Source: Methanococcoides sp. LMO-2
GTDB lineage: Archaea > Halobacteriota > Methanosarcinia > Methanosarcinales > Methanosarcinaceae
Length of the DNA stretch: 64,000 bases
Assembly: GCF_038432375.1 (NCBI RefSeq)
Contig: NZ_JBCAUS010000002.1
Coordinates: 620,001 to 684,000 of the forward strand
Direction of reading: 5' to 3'
Shown in pieces: positions 36,690 through 49,277 of this stretch (within the stretch, counting starts at the first letter, position 1; every line of letters begins with the position of its first letter). The translations under genes and the position numbers were made by a program. The notes beneath the pieces are model-generated. The model saw only the letters and a program-made list of their open reading frames with translations. It was not told the origin of the DNA and did no database searches.

Positions 36690-37997
36690 TTATGCAATTT
36701 CCTTGATCTTTGCGAAGAGCTGCTTGAGTGTGTCTTCGTTGCTCTGGGTAAACTCGAATGGAGAGCTTGTGAATGGCTTGAAGTACATTGGCACGTTGTC
36801 GAGCCTGTAGAATGTACCATCATTCTCCATTGCGTCAATGACACCAGGAAGAACAACATCTGAAGCAGTGACTGTTGGACATGGTGCAATATCCAGGCAG
36901 GTCATTGGGATGTCTGCCAGGTATTTTGCAGCGTCTGCAGGGATGTGGTTGACAAGGTCAGCACACATTACGAATGCAGCGTCTACGTCCTTCTCCCTCA
37001 GAACGTCCACACAGGTGGTCTCTCCAGGGTTGTACCTTGGATAGCCTCTTGAGAAGTCGATACCGAATGGGTATCCGTAGAGGTATGATGCGATCTGGTT
37101 GAAACCTGCTACGTTACAGTGACCTCTCAGTGCACCGAGTACGAACTTTGTTCCGTGGTTGTTGTTGAGCTCCTTGACAAGGTTAAGTCCGAGTTCAACG
37201 TTCCTGTGCTTACCGATTGAGGAACCAAGACCAAGACCTACTGAAATGCTACCGAAGTTTGCATTCATCATTGTCTCGACCATCTCGTCCATCACGGAGA
37301 TAGGTACACCGGTGATCTGCTCGACAGATGGGTGTGGCCTCTTACCGTTGATGATGGTCAGCAGTGCGCTGAAAAGTTCATAGTCGGTGTTAGGGTTGAG
37401 CTGGACGTGAAGGTCTGATGCTACTGCAGTGTCGGTTCTCCTTGGGTCGACTGTGATGACCTTACGATCGAACCTTCCTCTCTTGGACCAGTATCCTCTT
37501 GGGAACACAGCATACTTTGACATGTGTCTTGGCATGGATGCCAGAGGGTTACTTCCCCAGTAGATGTTAACGTCACTTCTGTTCTTGGTCTGACCTGCTG
37601 TTGCTGCAGGACATCCGCTTTCCTGGATACCCATCACAGTAGGACCGTGGCAGATGGTAGCGTTGGAATCAGCTACACCACCGAGGTACTCTGCAATGTG
37701 AAGACCTACTTCCTGTGCTTCACAGGAGGTCTCACTTCCGAGGAAGAAGAGAGGTCTCTCAGCATTTACAAGCATCTCTGCTGCCTTTGTAAGTGCCTCG
37801 TCCCATGCAGCTTTCTGAAGCTTTCCTTCTTTCCTGACCTGTGGGTCCTTGAGACGGTGTGTGCTTACGATCTCCTGGAACTTACCATTACCCATCTTAC
37901 ATGCGTTCTTAACGGTGATCTCGCCGTCGCCGAGCTCTACCTGAATGTCGTCACATGATGCTCCGCAAACCGGACACATGATGTTCTTAAAAACCAT
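36690..37997 (-). CDS. fmdB: Formylmethanofuran dehydrogenase subunit B (catalytic, Mo-pterin)
   Basis: Catalytic subunit for reversible CO2 reduction to formate, the first step of methanogenesis from CO2 and the last oxidative step in methylotrophic growth. At 435 residues it opens with a [4Fe-4S] motif (CPVCGASCDD, then NAC), and carries TICHGPTVMG near 114-123, whose Cys116 matches the Cys/Sec metal ligand of formate dehydrogenases (U-HGP). It therefore uses Cys, not Sec. A longer frame starts at 38033, but the ATG at 37997, two bases after the fmdD stop and behind GGGAGGTAAC, is the evident start. fdhD follows. Confidence 0.95.
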   Translation of the reverse strand: MVFKNIMCPVCGASCDDIQVELGDGEITVKNACKMGNGKFQEIVSTHRLKDPQVRKEGKLQKAAWDEALTKAAEMLVNAERPLFFLGSETSCEAQEVGLHIAEYLGGVADSNATICHGPTVMGIQESGCPAATAGQTKNRSDVNIYWGSNPLASMPRHMSKYAVFPRGYWSKRGRFDRKVITVDPRRTDTAVASDLHVQLNPNTDYELFSALLTIINGKRPHPSVEQITGVPISVMDEMVETMMNANFGSISVGLGLGSSIGKHRNVELGLNLVKELNNNHGTKFVLGALRGHCNVAGFNQIASYLYGYPFGIDFSRGYPRYNPGETTCVDVLREKDVDAAFVMCADLVNHIPADAAKYLADIPMTCLDIAPCPTVTASDVVLPGVIDAMENDGTFYRLDNVPMYFKPFTSSPFEFTQSNEDTLKQLFAKIKEIA

Positions 37998-37998
37998 A

Positions 37999-38394
37999 TC
38001 AGTTACCTCCCATGTACAGTTGAAGGACAACATCCTCTGCGCTTAGTACCTCGCCTTCAGCAGCCTCGATGGTTACAGGATTACCCTTATAGAGAGGGGA
38101 ACCTGTTGAGAATGTGTCAGGGTCGATGACCACGTTGGACCAGATAGCCCTTGGCATGAATACATCTCCTTCCATTACAACATCTGTGCATTTTGTGAAC
38201 ACAATGATGGAATGTTTTTCGTCCTTACTTGTTACTTTTACTTTTTCCGGGCTTCCAAGTGCTTCAAAATCGCATGGTGAAATCCAGCATACAGCACATT
38301 CCTGCCTGTAATCCTCTGTATATTTGTCACCGCCTTTTGCAAGCCTGCCCTCGTCAATGGTACTTCCTGTGTTAAGTAATACTCTCATCATCAC
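37999..38394 (-). CDS. fmdD: Formylmethanofuran dehydrogenase subunit D
   Basis: The 131-residue molybdopterin-dinucleotide-binding domain that complements FmdB. Characteristic stretches are LNTGSTIDEGRLAKGGDKYTEDY near residues 6-28 and CWISPCDFEALG near 35-46, plus the C-terminal NPVTIEAAEGEVLSAEDVVLQ. It folds as the double-psi barrel that clamps the cofactor. It sits between fmdC (3-base gap) and fmdB (1-base gap), the tight spacing of the whole operon. Confidence 0.93.
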   Translation of the reverse strand: MMMRVLLNTGSTIDEGRLAKGGDKYTEDYRQECAVCWISPCDFEALGSPEKVKVTSKDEKHSIIVFTKCTDVVMEGDVFMPRAIWSNVVIDPDTFSTGSPLYKGNPVTIEAAEGEVLSAEDVVLQLYMGGN

Positions 38395-38397
38395 ACC

Positions 38398-39207
38398 TCA
38401 CAGATCCATGTTTGCAGCCTGGTTAACATAGAGTGAACCTTTTGGCCTCTTTGTGATCGCATTGTCACCGAGGAACTTCATGAACTCACCCGGACATTCT
38501 ATGTCATCGAACTTAAGGTCGCTTTCATTTGCCACGTATTCGAATCCTGGAGAGAACCTTTCAATGGTTCCGTTAACGACCATTGTACCGGCTGTCATCT
38601 CTGCAGCAACTGCGCGGATAGCATTGCCCTTTACAGCGATAAGTCCGCCGTTCTGGCGAATACCACAGTAGTGACCGACGTTTCCGCCGACGATGATCTC
38701 GCCGCCGCTGATTCCGCCACCAAGGTTGTTGTTTGCGTTTCCGTCGAGGACGATACGTCCACCGGACATTCCTACCCACTTACCACGGTATGCGCAACCA
38801 ACGTGGTCCTTTGCATTACCTTCGATGTGGAGGAGTCCGCCTTTCATCTCCATTCCTGCCCAGGAATCTGCGTCGCCCTTTACAAGGATCTCGCCGCCTT
38901 CCATCTGGGAACCTACGTGCATGCTAACAGATCCCTCCACGGTGATCTTGCCTGCTGTCATCTTTTCACCGATGCGCTTTACTCTGGAAGTGTCACCTTT
39001 GATGACAATGGAAGTGTCCTCTGCGGAACTTCCTGCATCACCCTCTACATCGAAAAATGCAGAGAGAGGAAGCTGTTTTGGTCCCTGCCATACCTGAAGG
39101 GACTCAATATCGCTCTTGTTCTTGCCGGCGAATGCATCAGGAGTGATGACATCTGCCTCTACTTTGATACCGATCTCGGTATTTACTGTAAGAATAACTT
39201 CTGCCAT
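38398..39207 (-). CDS. fmdC: Formylmethanofuran dehydrogenase subunit C
   Basis: A 269-residue beta-helix protein resembling the C-terminal domain of glutamate synthase. It is built of repeats with the pattern G-G-x-I/L-x-V/I-x-G-x-A (MEGGEILVKGDA, MKGGLLHIEGNA, MSGGRIVLDGNA, ISGGEIIVGGNV, QNGGLIAVKGNA). It holds FmdA and FmdB together near the internal tunnel. A longer frame begins at 39354 but overlaps fmdA; the ATG at 39207 (MAEVILTVNTEIG) behind CGGAG is the family start, 4 bases after the fmdA stop. Confidence 0.94.
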   Translation of the reverse strand: MAEVILTVNTEIGIKVEADVITPDAFAGKNKSDIESLQVWQGPKQLPLSAFFDVEGDAGSSAEDTSIVIKGDTSRVKRIGEKMTAGKITVEGSVSMHVGSQMEGGEILVKGDADSWAGMEMKGGLLHIEGNAKDHVGCAYRGKWVGMSGGRIVLDGNANNNLGGGISGGEIIVGGNVGHYCGIRQNGGLIAVKGNAIRAVAAEMTAGTMVVNGTIERFSPGFEYVANESDLKFDDIECPGEFMKFLGDNAITKRPKGSLYVNQAANMDL

Positions 39208-39211
39208 GATA

Positions 39212-40966
39212 TCACTGCTCCGTGTTGAGCTTGATCGCTGTTGGGTTCTTGAGGTAAGACTCAGGTGTTGGATAGTGGTTGAATCCGTGTGAATAGTACC
39301 TGAACCATTCCTGGACATCCTTGAGCATTTCCTTCTCGTTTGCGTCAGGAACACTCACGTCAGTGTAGTAGGTTCTCCTGTCTGCGATCTTTGTGATCTC
39401 ACCATTGTGGCAGACAATGTCTCCGTCCTTGATGGTGTATTCAGCGGTGCTGAACTTGTTGATCAGATCGGAGTATTCCCTTGTGTCGATCTTGCTTGGG
39501 TCAATGTCATAGATGGTCACATCACCATCTGCACCGATACCAAAGCTTCCCTTCCTGTGTGCCATACCGATTGTCTTAGCTGTGTTGGCACGGGTAAGGA
39601 TCGCGATGTCGTAAAGGGACATTTCCCTGTCCACTCCACCGAGTGTGCTTCTGTCGTTTGCCCATGGGTGACATTCGCTGAATGTCTGGTCCCTGAACTT
39701 CTCGGACATAAGCCAGCTCATAACGAGTGGATACTTGGTGAAAGGACCACCGTTAGGACTGTCGGTTGTCATGATTACCTTCCATGGATCATCGACCAGG
39801 AGCAGGCATTCAAGACCCATTGCCCACTGGGTACTGTGGACCGGGTTGCTCTTAAGGTATGTGAACGGACAGACACCGGAACCACATTCGAGTTCAACAT
39901 CGGTGTTTGACCATTTTCCACCGGTAAGCACAGACAGATCGTGGATGGACGGACCATCACCAGTCATACATGTTGCTTCACCGAATGGGACACAACCACT
40001 GTCAATTACAACGTGGTCGGTGCTGTTGATATAATCTGTAAGAGGCTTGACACCGGACTCGAAGTCACGCCAGGATGTACCGCCAAATGCGTTGAACATC
40101 ATGTGTGTAAGATACACGGACTGGTCCCTGCTTGCATCGATCTTTGTCTCTGCCCACTCTACACCCATGTCCTGGTTTGGTTTCACGTTGCTGGAGATCT
40201 TCATGGACTCCTTTGTGGTCTCGAAGTTTCCAGGGTGACCAAGGTTGTTTGCGTGAAGGTGCATTGACATTGGCATACCGAGCATTTCATTGACCTCGGT
40301 AAGGCCTTCGATCATCTCTCTTGGAGTTACCTCGAAGTGGATGTTTGCCTCGTCAAGGGAAGATACGTTCTTACCCCATCCCCAGTTCTCTACACCAGCC
40401 GGGTTGACACACTTGATACCGTATGTCTTGTGGGTCTTCATCATCCAGGAAACGTATGCTGCTGCCTTTTCGATGTCGCCTTCCTTGAGGTAGCGCATCA
40501 TGAACCAGTTGTTACCGAGAACAAGATATCCACCCATGTCGAGCATTGGGATAGAGCGCATCTCTTCGTGTGTGTGGCGTGCTTCCATTGGAGGAACAGC
40601 TGCCTCGAAGACGGTTGTGTATCCCATCTGTGAGTACTCGTATCCTTCCATGTAGACTGATGGTACGGTCTCTCCTGATCCGGAGTGTGCAATATCGGTC
40701 TTTGCCATAGTTGCCTTGTAACCGTCCTCAGGACGCATCATCCTACCTGCGTTGACCTTTGCACCAGCAATGTGTGAGTGAGAGTCAACACCACCAGGCA
40801 TTACGGTCTTGCCTGTTGCATCAATGATCTTAGCGTCTTTCATGTCAGCATCTGAGAGTTCAGATACGACCTTACCATTTTTGATGAAAATGTCCTGTTT
40901 CTCACCGTTCACTTCGTTGAGCGGGTCGTAAACAGATCCATTCTTAATTACAATAGTTCCAACCAT
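39212..40966 (-). CDS. fmdA: Formylmethanofuran dehydrogenase subunit A (amidohydrolase)
   Basis: The 584-residue subunit that joins formate, arriving through a tunnel from FmdB, to methanofuran. It is an amidohydrolase-superfamily enzyme with a two-metal site: HSH at residues 63-65, the likely carboxylated Lys in YGIKCVNP near 176-183, His ligands in MSMHLHANNLGHP, and a catalytic Asp in DSPNGGPF. Its ATG overlaps the stop of fmdF (TAATG). Length and motifs match the known archaeal enzyme throughout, with no sign of damage. Confidence 0.95.
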   Translation of the reverse strand: MVGTIVIKNGSVYDPLNEVNGEKQDIFIKNGKVVSELSDADMKDAKIIDATGKTVMPGGVDSHSHIAGAKVNAGRMMRPEDGYKATMAKTDIAHSGSGETVPSVYMEGYEYSQMGYTTVFEAAVPPMEARHTHEEMRSIPMLDMGGYLVLGNNWFMMRYLKEGDIEKAAAYVSWMMKTHKTYGIKCVNPAGVENWGWGKNVSSLDEANIHFEVTPREMIEGLTEVNEMLGMPMSMHLHANNLGHPGNFETTKESMKISSNVKPNQDMGVEWAETKIDASRDQSVYLTHMMFNAFGGTSWRDFESGVKPLTDYINSTDHVVIDSGCVPFGEATCMTGDGPSIHDLSVLTGGKWSNTDVELECGSGVCPFTYLKSNPVHSTQWAMGLECLLLVDDPWKVIMTTDSPNGGPFTKYPLVMSWLMSEKFRDQTFSECHPWANDRSTLGGVDREMSLYDIAILTRANTAKTIGMAHRKGSFGIGADGDVTIYDIDPSKIDTREYSDLINKFSTAEYTIKDGDIVCHNGEITKIADRRTYYTDVSVPDANEKEMLKDVQEWFRYYSHGFNHYPTPESYLKNPTAIKLNTEQ

Positions 40967-41988
40967 TATTCCACCTCTCTCTTCTCAAGCCATATTGCAG
41001 ATGTCGGGCAGATCAGTGCGCATGCACCGCATGAGCCACATGCTTCCTGGTCAAGGACCTTAACACTACCGTTCCTTACCTCAAGCAAAGGCTTCTCATC
41101 AAGATCGTTGAGTGCACCAGCTGCCAGGAACTTTGAAGAGTTAGCATTGACAGGACACATGATGACACAGTTTCCACAGCCAAGGCAGGCATCTTCGTCT
41201 GTCTTGAGCACGGATGTCAGAACAGGTGTTGCTGATGGCTTGTTGAGCAGCTTCTTTTCGAAGACGGTCTTCTTTTCCATAGCTGTAAGGATCTCGGTCT
41301 TCTGCACGTCAATAGCCTGTACAGGACATGCGACTGCGCATGCACCACAGTAGAGACATGCATCTGGACGCTGTGCAACCTTGTCGACCCTCTCACCAAT
41401 ATCCCATTCAGGGTTGAAGAGTGCATTGCATGGGCAGACATCAACACATGTGCGGCATGCCTGACAGGTGTCCTCTTCGCGTGTCCATGTGCCTGCGAAA
41501 GGCTTCTGGACAGTGATAGCGTCCTTTGGACATACCTCAGCACACCATCCACAGTGTACACAATTGTCGTTGTCGATGATTGTCTTACCATCCACACGTG
41601 CGCTGTTATCATTTGACAACCACTGCTGGACCTCGATAGCTCCCTGTGGACAGATCTGTTCACAGAGACCACAGTGCACACAGTCATCGTTCACGGTTGT
41701 TGGTGCGATGGTGCTGCAGAGGAAATTATCGTTGCATACAGGCTTTCCATCCTCTCTCATCTCAAGAGCGCCTGTTGGGCAAATCTTGGTACACATTCCA
41801 CATGTGATGCAGGTGTCTGTAATTTCCAGGAACTCCTTGTTGATGAGTCCTCTGGCAACAGGTCCTACGGAACCAATGATCAGTGTGTCCTTAGGACAGA
41901 CCATTGTACAGGTTCCACAACCAATGCACTTGTGTGGCATGTAGACCACTTGCTTGTTATCTTTTGTCGAAACCACTATTTCGTTCAT
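40966..41988 (-). CDS. fmdF: Polyferredoxin subunit F of formylmethanofuran dehydrogenase
   Basis: A 340-residue electron carrier with eight [4Fe-4S] motifs in tandem: CIGCGTCTMVCP, CITCGMCTKICP, CVHCGLCEQICP, CVHCGWCAEVCP, CQACRTCVDVCP, CLYCGACAVACP, CLGCGNCVIMCP and CGSCGACALICP. It conducts electrons into the Mo active site of FmdB from ferredoxin or other partners. The gene lies between fmdE and fmdA in the E-F-A-C-D-B order seen in Methanosarcina molybdenum operons, which is why I use the fmd name. Confidence 0.95.
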   Translation of the reverse strand: MNEIVVSTKDNKQVVYMPHKCIGCGTCTMVCPKDTLIIGSVGPVARGLINKEFLEITDTCITCGMCTKICPTGALEMREDGKPVCNDNFLCSTIAPTTVNDDCVHCGLCEQICPQGAIEVQQWLSNDNSARVDGKTIIDNDNCVHCGWCAEVCPKDAITVQKPFAGTWTREEDTCQACRTCVDVCPCNALFNPEWDIGERVDKVAQRPDACLYCGACAVACPVQAIDVQKTEILTAMEKKTVFEKKLLNKPSATPVLTSVLKTDEDACLGCGNCVIMCPVNANSSKFLAAGALNDLDEKPLLEVRNGSVKVLDQEACGSCGACALICPTSAIWLEKREVE

Positions 41989-42004
41989 CTAATCTACTCC
42001 GTAA

Positions 42005-42598
42005 TTATTGCTCATGTCTGCATGCTTCACAAAGCGCTTCGCCCTCGTACCAGACAAAGCTCTCTCCACACTTGTCACAAAGCTTTACTTGCTTGCGTTT
42101 CTTGATCGGTACTTCGATCTCTGTAAAAGAATAAGAATAAATGCTCTCTCCCGCCTCAAGGACGATCGGAACAACTACCTCATGCGGCACTTTTTCAGTG
42201 TTCATGTACCATGCATAAAGTTTCGGGTATGCCTTTGTCTTTTCAGGATCAAGATATATCCTGACAGCAGGCATTGTTTTCTCACCCGGTGCACCACGCT
42301 TGTTGACAGTCACAGCCATCTTCCCGTAGTCATTCACCTTCAGTCCCTTGTTACCGGTGGTAGCACCTTCAAGTATCTGGAAAGGATCAGGAACACAGTT
42401 GTATGTCTCTGCTGTAGCGTAGATACGTTCACCTTCCTTAACATCAAGGAGTCTCTTTGACATATTGAGCATCTGAAGACCAATAAGTGCCCCTGTGCTC
42501 AAATAGCCGTGGAAAGGAATGATCTTCTCCACCTGTAAAAATAGCTCTGGATCTTGTTCTTTAATCTGTTTTAGAATATTATCCATTTCATCATCCAT
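42005..42598 (-). CDS. fmdE: FmdE-family protein with C-terminal zinc ribbon
   Basis: First gene of the operon (197 residues). The FmdE domain covers about 15-150, with HGYLSTGALIGLQM near 30-43 (metal-binding His) and AETYNCVPDPFQILEGATTGNKGL near 63-86. The C-terminus LCDKCGESFVWYEGEALCEACR is a C-x2-C...C-x2-C zinc ribbon. FmdE proteins co-purify with or assist formylmethanofuran dehydrogenase but are not part of the catalytic core; the exact role is open. AGAGGTC precedes the ATG at 42598. The gap to fmdF is 16 bases. Confidence 0.9.
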   Translation of the reverse strand: MDDEMDNILKQIKEQDPELFLQVEKIIPFHGYLSTGALIGLQMLNMSKRLLDVKEGERIYATAETYNCVPDPFQILEGATTGNKGLKVNDYGKMAVTVNKRGAPGEKTMPAVRIYLDPEKTKAYPKLYAWYMNTEKVPHEVVVPIVLEAGESIYSYSFTEIEVPIKKRKQVKLCDKCGESFVWYEGEALCEACRHEQ

Positions 42599-42862: not shown

Positions 42863-43150
42863 TTATTCCACAAGCTCAGCGATCCTGCCCAGCAACCCTT
42901 TCGCAGCTTCCTTACTGGGAGCATGTCTGACAGTGATCTTGCCACTCTTATAGACCAGAACCATCATAGCACCGGAAGTGAAACGAATCGCTCCAAGCTC
43001 CTCCGAACATCTCAGGAACTTGATGACATCTTCACCCTCTGTTTTCAAAGACTCACATGCTTTTGATATGTCTATCTCATTATCAAGTTGTGCTATTACA
43101 TGCTGGATATCCGGACCGCTCTTGCAGGGAGTAATAGATCGTATTTCCAT
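42863..43150 (-). CDS. Small conserved-looking protein of the Fe-S gene cluster, unknown
   Basis: A 95-residue soluble protein (MEIRSITPCKSGPDIQHVIAQL...). It has three Cys (residues 9, 33 and 49) and an alpha/beta pattern ending in GLLGRIAELVE; SGAMMVLVYKSGKITVRHAPSKEAA is the most distinctive stretch. I do not recognise the family. It follows the IscU-like gene by 70 bases on the same strand, so it may belong to that unit. A TTG three codons earlier is in frame; I prefer the ATG at 43150. Confidence 0.6.
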   Translation of the reverse strand: MEIRSITPCKSGPDIQHVIAQLDNEIDISKACESLKTEGEDVIKFLRCSEELGAIRFTSGAMMVLVYKSGKITVRHAPSKEAAKGLLGRIAELVE

Positions 43151-43220
43151 GGTAACCAAAAACCCGTTTTAAATTTAACATAAAGAATGAAGCTAAAAAT
43201 AAAAGATCAAAAAGAAAGTA

Positions 43221-43856
43221 TCAGGAGATGAAATCAACCGTGACACTTTCAACATCCCAGAGAGCTTCCAGCTTCTCGATGATGTCCTCTTTTATTGCAG
43301 CTGCGAACTGATGGTGGGACGGCAGGTCGATAACCACGCGCACGTTGCCTTCATTAACCTCAATTTTCATCACGAGCTCGGTCCTGATGATGTCAAGTCC
43401 CTTGATCGGGTTCATCACATGTTTCAGGCGCCTTTTGATAACTTCCTCGTCGGTGGGCTCGTCCTCCACCACCATTCCGTGCTTTTCCTCATAATCACGG
43501 ATAGCGGAACGAAGTCCCTCTACAGCCAGCACAGAACAGTGTGCTTTCACCGCAGGAAGTCCTCCAAGTGCTTCTGCCGCTTCCTTCCATGTGATCTTCT
43601 TGGCATCTTCAAGGGTCTTGCCCTTTGCAAGCTCAGTAATAATGGAAGCTGTGGCAATGTTGGATGCACAACCATAGGATTCGAAAGAGATATCCTCAAT
43701 AATAAGGGTATCCGGGTTCACCTTCAGGTAAACCGCAACCATGTCCCCACAGGCTGCACTGCCTTCAAGACCCTTTCCGTCAGGGTCCTCCATCTTACCC
43801 ACGTTATGCGGGTTTCTGAAATGCTCAAGTACCTCTTTACTATATGGAAATGTCAT
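43221..43856 (-). CDS. iscU: IscU-type Fe-S scaffold fused to a MIP18-like domain
   Basis: Residues 1-130 are an IscU/NifU scaffold: the cluster ligands are Cys36 (in ACGD, with the usual Asp38), Cys63 (YGCAS) and Cys107 (KAHCSV). Residues 137-211 are an extra domain resembling MIP18/SufT (DUF59): MNPIKGLDIIRTELVMKIEV, then VRVVIDLPSHHQFAAAIKEDI and ALWDVESVTVDF. The position where many MIP18 proteins have TSPGCP is replaced by LPSHHQ. It assembles or hands over Fe-S clusters with the upstream desulfurase-like protein, 30 bases away. GTG four codons earlier is in frame; AGAGGTGA fits the ATG at 43856. Confidence 0.85.
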   Translation of the reverse strand: MTFPYSKEVLEHFRNPHNVGKMEDPDGKGLEGSAACGDMVAVYLKVNPDTLIIEDISFESYGCASNIATASIITELAKGKTLEDAKKITWKEAAEALGGLPAVKAHCSVLAVEGLRSAIRDYEEKHGMVVEDEPTDEEVIKRRLKHVMNPIKGLDIIRTELVMKIEVNEGNVRVVIDLPSHHQFAAAIKEDIIEKLEALWDVESVTVDFIS

Positions 43857-43886
43857 AAAACCACTCACCTCTTCCTCTTTATTGGT

Positions 43887-45056
43887 TTAATCGTCTGCTG
43901 ACAGCGGGCTGATAGCCCTGAGATTTTCAACAACTTCCTTCAATGCATCAATGATGGCATCTGCATCTTCCATGGTGTTGAACCTTCCGAAACTGAAGCG
44001 CAATGAACCATGGGCCCGCTCGTGATCGCCGCCGATACCAAGGATCACGTGACTTGCCTCAAGGGAACGACTGAAACATGCTGATCCGGTGCTCACGGCA
44101 AATCCCATCATATCCAGATGTAATGTGATGGATTCACCTTCGACATAATGGAAGGTCAGGTTAGCGTTCTGTGGCAACCTGCTGGTAGCACTGCCATTAA
44201 GAGTGACATGTGAGATCTCGGACTGTACTCTTTCAATAATGCGATCCCTCATGGCTTTGAGCTGTTCGTTCTCCTCAGGAGTAACCAGCTCAACGGCCGT
44301 TGCAAAACCCACGGCACCCGGGATATTCTCAATACCCGCACGCAGGTCGAACTCTTGGAAGCCACCATCCATCCACTTGTTGATAGGGGTGCCTTCTCTA
44401 ATATACAGTGCACCAACACCACGCGGGCCATGGATAGTATGGGCTGAGACCGTCACAAGGTCAACAGAGACCTGGCTTACATCGAGTGGAAGCCTTGTAA
44501 AACTATGAGTAGCATCAGTATGAAGCAATACACCCTTTTCCTTACAGATGTCTGCTATTGCCTTGATGTCCTGTACAGTACCTATCTCCTGGTTTGCATA
44601 CTGGATGGATACCAGTGCTGTCTGCGGGGTGATAGCAGCCTTGAGCATCTCAAGGTCAAGGACACCTTCACTGTCAACATCTATGAAATCGACCTTGTAG
44701 CCCTGTTTCTCAAGCATCTTTGCAGTGTTCAACACATCAAAGTCTTCCAGACGGGATACGATGAGATGATCATCCTTCTTGCCCTTCAATGCAGAAAGGA
44801 CTCCTTTTATGGCCATATTGCTCGATTCGGTGCTTCCCGAAGTGAACACGATCTCATTGGCATCCGCCCCAAGAGCCGATGCAATTACCTTCCTTGATCT
44901 TTCAAGACCTTCCTTGGATTCAATTCCCATGGAATAACCAAACTCGGAAGTAGCAACTGCATAAGTATCAAAAAAATACGGTTTCATTGCCTCAAGCACC
45001 CTTTCATCCAGGCGGGTACTGGCAGCATTGTCAAGATATACTGTCTTATCGAACAT
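43887..45056 (-). CDS. IscS/NifS-like protein lacking the PLP-binding lysine
   Basis: A 389-residue fold-type I aminotransferase-like protein of the NifS/IscS family, with YLDNAASTRLDERVLEAM at the start, SLRFSFGRFNT near the end, and the persulfide Cys327 in STGSACFSRSLEASHV. The PLP site is altered: the segment that is SAHKxxGPKG in desulfurases reads SAHTIHGPRG, with Thr207 (codon ACT) at the lysine position; the stacking His of TEH is Asp (LED); and DAxQ is DATH. It probably cannot form the PLP aldimine. A similar Lys loss is known in Archaeoglobus IscS, which still binds IscU. It is upstream of the iscU gene. Confidence 0.88.
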   Translation of the reverse strand: MFDKTVYLDNAASTRLDERVLEAMKPYFFDTYAVATSEFGYSMGIESKEGLERSRKVIASALGADANEIVFTSGSTESSNMAIKGVLSALKGKKDDHLIVSRLEDFDVLNTAKMLEKQGYKVDFIDVDSEGVLDLEMLKAAITPQTALVSIQYANQEIGTVQDIKAIADICKEKGVLLHTDATHSFTRLPLDVSQVSVDLVTVSAHTIHGPRGVGALYIREGTPINKWMDGGFQEFDLRAGIENIPGAVGFATAVELVTPEENEQLKAMRDRIIERVQSEISHVTLNGSATSRLPQNANLTFHYVEGESITLHLDMMGFAVSTGSACFSRSLEASHVILGIGGDHERAHGSLRFSFGRFNTMEDADAIIDALKEVVENLRAISPLSADD

Positions 45057-45312: not shown

Positions 45313-46104
45313 TCATCTGGACCTTACGATCTCTTCGGCTATCTTTGCAGCTTTTACACCGGACTCCAACATTCCACCAAATGTAGGACCCATTCTGGAA
45401 AGACCAAAGCATGTAGCTGCAGCCATTCCCGTAACTACGAGTCCCGGGTAAAGCTCTGACGTGTTGTTTACCACAGCATCCTCGGAATTATCAACATCCA
45501 TTCCTAAGAAGCCTTTAAGGTCCACAAGACCACGGTCTGCCAGGGAGTTAGCTACAACTGCATCATGACCTGTCGCATCAATAACGCATTTTGTCTCAAT
45601 GGCCACCGGATCAACACAGGTGATAGCACGTGGAAGGGCTGATACTGGCGTCCAGTTCGTAACAGCACCGCAAACACGACCGTCCCTGAGGACCACATCA
45701 TCGAACTTGTTCATGTTAAGCATGAAAGCACCTGCATCACAGGCAGCTGAGATCAGCTTGGAACACGCAGAAGGAGCATCTGCAACATAGAGACCTTCCT
45801 TTATGTCCGGAACTTCCTTGTAAGGAACCCCTAGCTGGTCAAATATTTTCTGGGCAGGTGCCCTGACTGTGACCTTGTTCATCAGGTACCCACCTAGCCA
45901 AAAACCGCCACCAAAGTAATTGTTGCTCTCAAGTACAACGGTCTTTAAACCACTGGAAGCAAGATCACGTGCTGCTACAAGACCACTTGGACCGCCGCCA
46001 ACAATGATCACATCACTTTCAATGTGATTAAGGAAATCTCCAAGGAATTCTTCAACTATCGAACGAGTAATATCTTTTTCAGTTGCTTGTGCGAATTGAT
46101 TCAT
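45313..46104 (-). CDS. thi4: Thi4-type thiazole synthase
   Basis: Makes the thiazole precursor of thiamine from NAD and glycine with iron and a sulfur donor. At 263 residues it has the FAD-like Rossmann start DVIIVGGGPSGLVAARDLA (31-49), ESNNYFGGGFWLGGYLMN, and the C-terminal MGPTFGGMLESGVKAAKIAEEI. At the active-site position before the conserved DP (TCVDPVAIE) it has Cys163, as in yeast and plant suicide enzymes, whereas Methanocaldococcus-type enzymes have His. A longer frame reaches 46191, but GGTGAAGAA directly precedes the ATG at 46104. tRNA-Cys lies 87 bases upstream on the same strand. Confidence 0.9.
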   Translation of the reverse strand: MNQFAQATEKDITRSIVEEFLGDFLNHIESDVIIVGGGPSGLVAARDLASSGLKTVVLESNNYFGGGFWLGGYLMNKVTVRAPAQKIFDQLGVPYKEVPDIKEGLYVADAPSACSKLISAACDAGAFMLNMNKFDDVVLRDGRVCGAVTNWTPVSALPRAITCVDPVAIETKCVIDATGHDAVVANSLADRGLVDLKGFLGMDVDNSEDAVVNNTSELYPGLVVTGMAAATCFGLSRMGPTFGGMLESGVKAAKIAEEIVRSR

Positions 46105-46191
46105 TTCTTCACCTGTTTTATAGGATGATAGGGAAGTGCAGGAGATGCAAAGCAGAAAAGTAAAAGGATTCAGCCCTACACCTAATTCCAA

Positions 46192-48956: not shown

Positions 48957-49277
48957 TCACTCATCTGCAGGGCAGGCGCCCTCACCTCTTCTTAAGTACC
49001 TGCAGATCTCACAGATCTTTGCAGCCACATTGTCCACCTTGCCTTCCTGTATCTCAAGAGCGAGATTTGCTATCGACTCTTTCACATCGTCATCGAACTC
49101 TATGCGGTAACCTCGTTTTTTCGTCAGGTACTGGGATACGGCAGATGGGGCCATGCCAAACATCTTTGCAACTTCCTTCTGTGAGATCCCGTTCTTTACA
49201 AGTTCCATTGCAAGAGCCGCACGGATCGCAGGAAGAATATCCCACACAACTGCCTGACAGGGAGTTTCCAGATTCAT
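48957..49277 (-). CDS. Small archaeal HTH regulator with C-terminal Cys motif
   Basis: A 106-residue protein of the COG2522-like predicted regulators. An XRE-type helix-turn-helix covers about 25-60 (ELVKNGISQKEVAKMFGMAPSAVSQYLTKKRG). The rest contains CEIC near 87-90 plus single Cys residues near both ends (ETPCQ, GACPADE), which could hold a metal or Fe-S cluster or form a thiol switch. It is convergent with the kinase gene. A palindrome identical to that at the tRNA-Cys promoter lies immediately upstream of its TATA box, which suggests autoregulation. Confidence 0.8.
   Translation of the reverse strand: MNLETPCQAVVWDILPAIRAALAMELVKNGISQKEVAKMFGMAPSAVSQYLTKKRGYRIEFDDDVKESIANLALEIQEGKVDNVAAKICEICRYLRRGEGACPADE

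Follow-up and report, generated by a model that had tools for sequence, protein, structure and literature searches.

The iscS1 gene raises the question of what a homolog of the cysteine desulfurases IscS and NifS may do beside an IscU scaffold when it lacks the PLP-binding lysine. Canonical IscS proteins use PLP chemistry to release sulfur from cysteine and then pass this sulfur to IscU or TusA. The gene lies in the window, a 64,000-nucleotide stretch of the Methanococcoides sp. LMO-2 genome (coordinates are given in the table below). The lysine loss itself is already published, since Deere et al. (2020, PMC7585200) described the PLP-binding residues of M. acetivorans IscS1, including the lysine, as missing and suggested an A. 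fulgidus-like function. The M. acetivorans proteins IscS1/IscU1 (MA0808/MA0807) are direct orthologs of the window pair, and both IscS1 proteins have the STGSACFS loop, the missing lysine, and a 24-kDa IscU1 partner. On balance we favor, with moderate confidence, a reading in which IscS1 is no cysteine desulfurase and acts as a Cys-loop protein that would pass persulfide sulfur from TusA/DsrE2 to IscU1. The gene associations behind this reading are observed, and its chemistry is predicted.

Features of the iscS1-iscU1 locus in the window
Feature	Position	Strand	Basis
iscS1, lysine-less IscS/NifS homolog, 389 aa	43887..45056	-	ORF listing, profile matches, alignment, structure comparison
Thr207 (ACT) at the PLP-lysine position	44436..44438	-	codon read directly; 81/81 sequences
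Asp105 (GAC) at the PLP-stacking His position	44742..44744	-	codon read; 81/81
His184 (CAT) at the Gln of DAxQ, here DATH	44505..44507	-	codon read; 81/81
Cys327 (TGT), persulfide Cys in the mobile loop STGSACFSRSLE	44076..44078	-	codon read; 81/81
Residues 33-44, AVATSEFGYSMG, in place of the NPSSxH loop, two residues longer	44925..44960	-	alignment with lysine-bearing IscS
iscU1, IscU scaffold (PF01592) with C-terminal MIP18 domain (PF01883)	43221..43868	-	profile matches
MIP18/FeS_assembly_P domain, IscU1 residues 142-211	43236..43445	-	profile match
98-aa ORF downstream of iscU1	42863..43159	-	only in Methanococcoides loci

Alignment with lysine-bearing IscS revealed none of the Schiff-base lysine, the PLP-stacking His, and the DAxQ Gln in IscS1. 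The earlier note had read the lysine of SAHK as Thr207, the stacking His as Asp, and DAxQ as DATH, and direct reading of the codons bears out all of these replacements. A further change, absent from that note, is the swap of the NPSSxH loop for VATSEFGYSMG, and a bulky Phe39, present in 81/81 T-type sequences, is inserted in the pocket. Retained, by comparison with lysine-bearing IscS across the phylum, are T76, N155, D181, S204, H206, C327, and R353 (codon CGC). Canonical IscS/NifS proteins (E. coli IscS, human Nfs1, and M. acetivorans IscS2) share with IscS1 the fold and the persulfide Cys loop but have the lysine, the stacking His, the Gln, and the NPSSxH motif, all four of which IscS1 lacks. 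The class V aminotransferase fold was recognized by PF00266 (E 2.6e-72), and the protein fell below the curated cut-offs for NifS (438.3 vs 530.75 bits) and IscS (363 vs 643.2 bits). An AlphaFold model built from 44 sequences (pLDDT 87.9), used in place of one from 18 close homologs (pLDDT 52.7), matched human Nfs1, E. coli IscS, and A. fulgidus IscS with Z 50-53 and rmsd 1.5-1.9, in keeping with the earlier claim that Cys327 and the rest of the fold are intact. Judged from these residues, PLP chemistry is very probably gone from IscS1. The T-type clade is also fixed (99%) for Cys171 (44544-44546, minus strand), where lysine-bearing IscS mostly has Ala.

A sequencing error at the ACT codon, which the earlier note had named as one way its reading could fail, was rejected. 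In the alignment with homologs that it had proposed, T207 was present in 30/30 Methanosarcinaceae orthologs, together with D105, H184, N155, D181, and C327, and T207, D105, H184, and C327 were invariant in a set of 81 archaeal and bacterial sequences. The patterns that fetched this set covered residues 32-39 and about 151-158; positions 105, 184, 207, and 327 lie outside them and are fixed all the same, which argues against error or chance. Pairwise dN/dS among IscS1 orthologs was 0.02-0.12, indicating strong purifying selection, and together with the invariant residues this rules out a sequencing error or a pseudogene. The same values, and the invariance across domains, make it scarcely credible that IscS1 is a non-functional, decaying paralog, a view raised by Deere et al. 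and fed by the finding that M. acetivorans IscS1 formed only inclusion bodies in E. coli (PMC7585200). A footnote to Table 1 of that paper also lists IscS1 among the proteins detected in M. acetivorans by proteomics, although its text names only IscS2/U2 as consistently detected.

At sixteen columns the T-type clade is fixed for a residue other than the one fixed in lysine-bearing IscS, and many of these columns are pocket positions (34, 36, 39, 105, 152, 156, 183, 184, and 207). The pattern of substitution suggests that the pocket is re-specialized rather than lost. Nearly all members of the 81-sequence set retain T76, N155, D181, H206, and R353, so the site looks used, not empty. ColD is a lysine-less PMP enzyme, and the retained residues would suit a comparable protein that holds PLP or PMP with no internal aldimine and catalyzes another reaction. 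We give this only a slim chance, given that IscS1 has neither the stacking His nor Gln184 nor the NPSSxH loop and has the bulky Phe39 inserted.

In the phylum sample, T-type IscS was found in 55 of 393 genomes, from 6 genera of a single family. Restriction to the Methanosarcinaceae, which holds in this sample, proved false in a wider scan of 84,980 species genomes that yielded 195 relatives. The best 80 of these 195 include bacterial and archaeal groups at 66-72% identity: among the bacteria, Chloroflexota (Dehalococcoidia and Anaerolineae), Thermodesulfobacteriota (Syntrophales), Atribacterota, WOR-3, Actinomycetota, and Deltaproteobacteria labelled Myxococcota, and among the archaea, Altiarchaeales, Methanofastidiosum, Methanomassiliicoccaceae, and Heimdallarchaeota. 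Many of the relatives are metagenome-assembled genomes, so single taxon assignments may be wrong, although the spread is broad in any case. The viral contigs searched contained no relative. In three loci (L176, L184, and L190), a canonical iscSU pair adjoins the T-type cluster. With its occurrence in bacteria and other archaea, the T-type protein is not specific to methanogens. The window gene itself combines T207, D105, H184, and VATSEF with an adjoining iscU1, the signature of the M. acetivorans IscS1-type family.

An all-against-all comparison of neighbors recovered one conserved order, tusA-dsrE2-iscS1-iscU1(MIP18), in archaea and bacteria, including Methanolobus, Methanosarcina, Methanohalophilus, other archaea, and numerous bacteria. 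The neighbor that varies least is IscU1, and in the window iscU1 starts 18 nt downstream of iscS1; its ligands C40, D42, C67, and C111 (three Cys and one Asp) are invariant in 74 homologs. The CPxP cysteine of TusA and the DsrE2 cysteine are conserved across the clusters. No tusA-dsrE2 pair lies beside the window iscS1. In Methanococcoides, a genus that differs in this from M. acetivorans, the relay genes are unlinked from iscS1, and in the window's genome they are found 110 kb away, still paired (tusA, C2:775015-775224, PF01206, 2.8e-22; dsrE2, C2:775266-775676, PF13686, 5.6e-36). Strong dsrE2 matches were obtained in 20 of 60 relatives searched, all 20 of which have IscS1; only two of the 60 have IscS1 without dsrE2, namely, G366 (76% complete) and the near-complete G089, in which neither tusA nor dsrE2 was found. 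Two Methanosarcina loci from metagenome-assembled genomes (L182 and L192) have no tusA or dsrE2 nearby. A supposed further neighbor family, C3, proved to be an antisense ORF over tusA.

The presence of relay genes was scored against the lysine state of IscS, counting tusA or dsrE on the same strand within 1.8 kb of iscS in non-redundant loci. None of the 59 lysine-bearing iscS genes (about 20 families) had such a neighbor, in contrast to 111 of 127 lysine-less genes, comprising 82/96 of the T-type (the exceptions being mostly Methanococcoides, plus G089, L182, and L192) and 29/31 of the D-type, which is A. fulgidus-like. The Fisher p of 5e-34 treats the sequences as independent, which they are not; with so few lysine-less lineages, two or three evolutionary events, and not 127, underlie the association. 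A third clade (L083-L085, family f16), with the order dsrE-tusA-iscS-iscU and relay genes in 3/3 loci, keeps the lysine and carries Q184->D, R353->L, and HPSI for NPSS. We found no earlier publication on the spread of the T-type lineage beyond methanogens, on tusA-dsrE2-iscS-iscU(-MIP18) as its usual arrangement, or on the occurrence of the K->D clade in tusA-dsrE-iscS-iscU clusters as against 0/59 for lysine-bearing IscS. A search of titles and abstracts, with most subscription journals outside its reach, found no report of TusA, DsrE2, IscS, and IscU together. PMC7585200 places MA0808/MA0807 in a cluster with four genes to which it assigns no function, and the text consulted gives no tusA/dsrE2 identity, bacterial presence, or conserved pocket for IscS1.

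A. fulgidus IscS (PDB 4eb5, 4eb7, 4hvk, and 4r5f) resembles IscS1 in its lysine-less fold, Cys loop, IscU neighbor, and upstream tusA-dsrE. In the A. fulgidus genome, which has a 100% match to 4eb5, tusA, dsrE, iscS, and iscU are adjacent and collinear at one locus (L284). At the copy encoding the crystallized IscS, the start of the upstream dsrE (L285:2476-2826) looks damaged and no tusA match precedes it. The two types differ in their pockets: the A. fulgidus type has K->D (SSND), H206->N, Q184->A, and R353->L/V but keeps the stacking His and NPSSxH, both gone in the T-type, whereas IscS1 has SAHT and R353. The A. fulgidus IscU is also a shorter form (about 150 aa), and its IscS falls in a separate clade. 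The analogy with A. fulgidus drawn in the earlier note is apt for a lysine-less, IscU-partnered protein, but the differences in clade and pocket residues caution against supposing that both proteins work in the same way. In trees computed without the trait columns, lysine-bearing IscS lay between the T- and D-types, each of which formed a starred clade of its own, and the union of the two types appeared in 0% of bootstrap trees. A single origin of both losses is disfavored by the trees and not rejected by AU tests of the union (p 0.147 and 0.159). The two types differ in the residues that they carry at shared sites, which favors separate losses, and the lysine was likely lost separately in the two types.

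In E. coli, IscS binds TusA (solved complex 3lvj), and both the IscS-TusA-TusBCD system and the rhd-tusA-dsrE2 genes of sulfur oxidizers represent carrier relays fed by IscS or rhodanese. Those relays begin with a PLP desulfurase or a rhodanese, whereas the desulfurase site of IscS1 is lost. We propose that the PLP site of IscS1 was rebuilt with loss of cysteine desulfuration and that the protein, keeping its fold and mobile Cys327 loop, would partner IscU1(-MIP18) in sulfur transfer and cluster assembly. TusA (at the CPxP Cys) and DsrE2 (at its conserved Cys) would carry persulfide sulfur derived ultimately from sulfide or some other inorganic compound, and this sulfur would move to Cys327 or directly to IscU1; sulfur on Cys327 would then reach C40/D42/C67/C111 of IscU1, where the Fe-S cluster would form. 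Flow in canonical IscS is outward to TusA and IscU, and in IscS1 sulfur would instead enter from TusA/DsrE; donor, recipient, and direction are all predicted here from gene context. Several facts count against the relay: the association goes back to few lineages, G089 has IscS1 with neither tusA nor dsrE2, L182 and L192 have neither nearby, Methanococcoides has the genes unlinked, gene neighborhood gives no direction of flow, so that IscS1 could load TusA, and the third clade has tusA-dsrE yet keeps the lysine.

The main rival is a passive partner, in which IscS1 would only lend Cys327 to IscU1 as a cluster ligand or gate and free sulfide would be the source; the earlier note leaned this way, and the same role has been published for A. 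fulgidus IscS. Such a role is favored by A. fulgidus IscS, which is inactive and ligates a [2Fe-2S] cluster in IscU (as summarised in PMC7585200), by the feeding of IscU by H2S without IscS in E. coli under anaerobic conditions (PMC13015791), and by G089, which has IscS1 and no relay genes. It leaves unexplained why tusA/dsrE lie near lysine-less iscS and near 0/59 of the lysine-bearing genes, and we regard it as unlikely. The carrier relay is better supported than free sulfide by the apparent operon with tusA and dsrE2 in nearly every genome, including those of the A. fulgidus type. The earlier proposal of a Cys-bearing IscU partner without desulfurase chemistry fits these data, and its phrase "using sulfide" is the part without direct support.

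TusA and DsrE families serve tRNA thiolation, molybdopterin, and thiazole routes in other systems. An IscS1 relay could likewise serve one of these targets rather than IscU1, or sulfur could run from IscU1 through IscS1 to TusA, and the adjacency of iscS1 to thi4 in Methanococcoides might be taken to point that way. We consider this improbable, in that IscU1 is the most constant neighbor and keeps all its cluster ligands, and the thi4 adjacency is limited to Methanococcoides. In most Methanococcoides loci, the gene directly upstream of iscS1 encodes Thi4, of the sulfide-dependent ADP-thiazole synthase family (45313-46116, minus strand), and takes the place held by tusA-dsrE2 in other genera.

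For the relay from TusA/DsrE2 to IscU1, the wider setting is that the sulfur source and machinery of methanogen Fe-S clusters are open questions, for which IscS1U1 with TusA-DsrE2 offers a concrete candidate. SIGNIFICANCE M. acetivorans lacking both sufCB copies (PMC10500019) and M. acetivorans lacking iscSU2 (PMC7585200) show little change in growth or Fe-S content, and IscS1U1 could supply what is missing. A search of the window's genome found no IscS that has the lysine. That genome encodes a SufS-type desulfurase with the lysine (L002) and a SufB-family protein, so cysteine desulfuration may still take place in the cell. The TusA-DsrE link would also account for the ability of A. fulgidus IscS to do without the catalytic lysine, and the same is predicted for Dehalococcoidia, Syntrophales, and other anaerobes, where similarity alone would say cysteine desulfurase. 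More tentatively, and at somewhat less than an even chance, strict anaerobes may widely share an ISC system that has no desulfurase, with at least two origins (T-type and D-type), that combines loss of PLP chemistry in IscS with a dedicated TusA-DsrE relay and takes inorganic sulfur through persulfide to IscU; the third clade, which retains the lysine and has lost the substrate Arg, has the relay as well.

Other neighbors in the window were also recorded. In Methanococcoides, iscS1-iscU1 and the 98-aa ORF immediately precede a formylmethanofuran dehydrogenase-like operon (36690-42598, minus strand) that encodes FmdE, a polyferredoxin, and FwdA/C/D/B-like proteins, an order kept in Methanococcoides loci only. 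A 106-aa HTH protein (48957-49277, minus strand) contains C7 and, in its tail, CxxC-x9-C (AAKICEICRYLRRGEGACP); on visual comparison it resembles a 113-aa HTH protein adjoining A. fulgidus iscU (L284:1204-1542), and it clusters with one beside an iscSU pair in L190. It is a candidate Fe-S-sensing regulator of isc genes.
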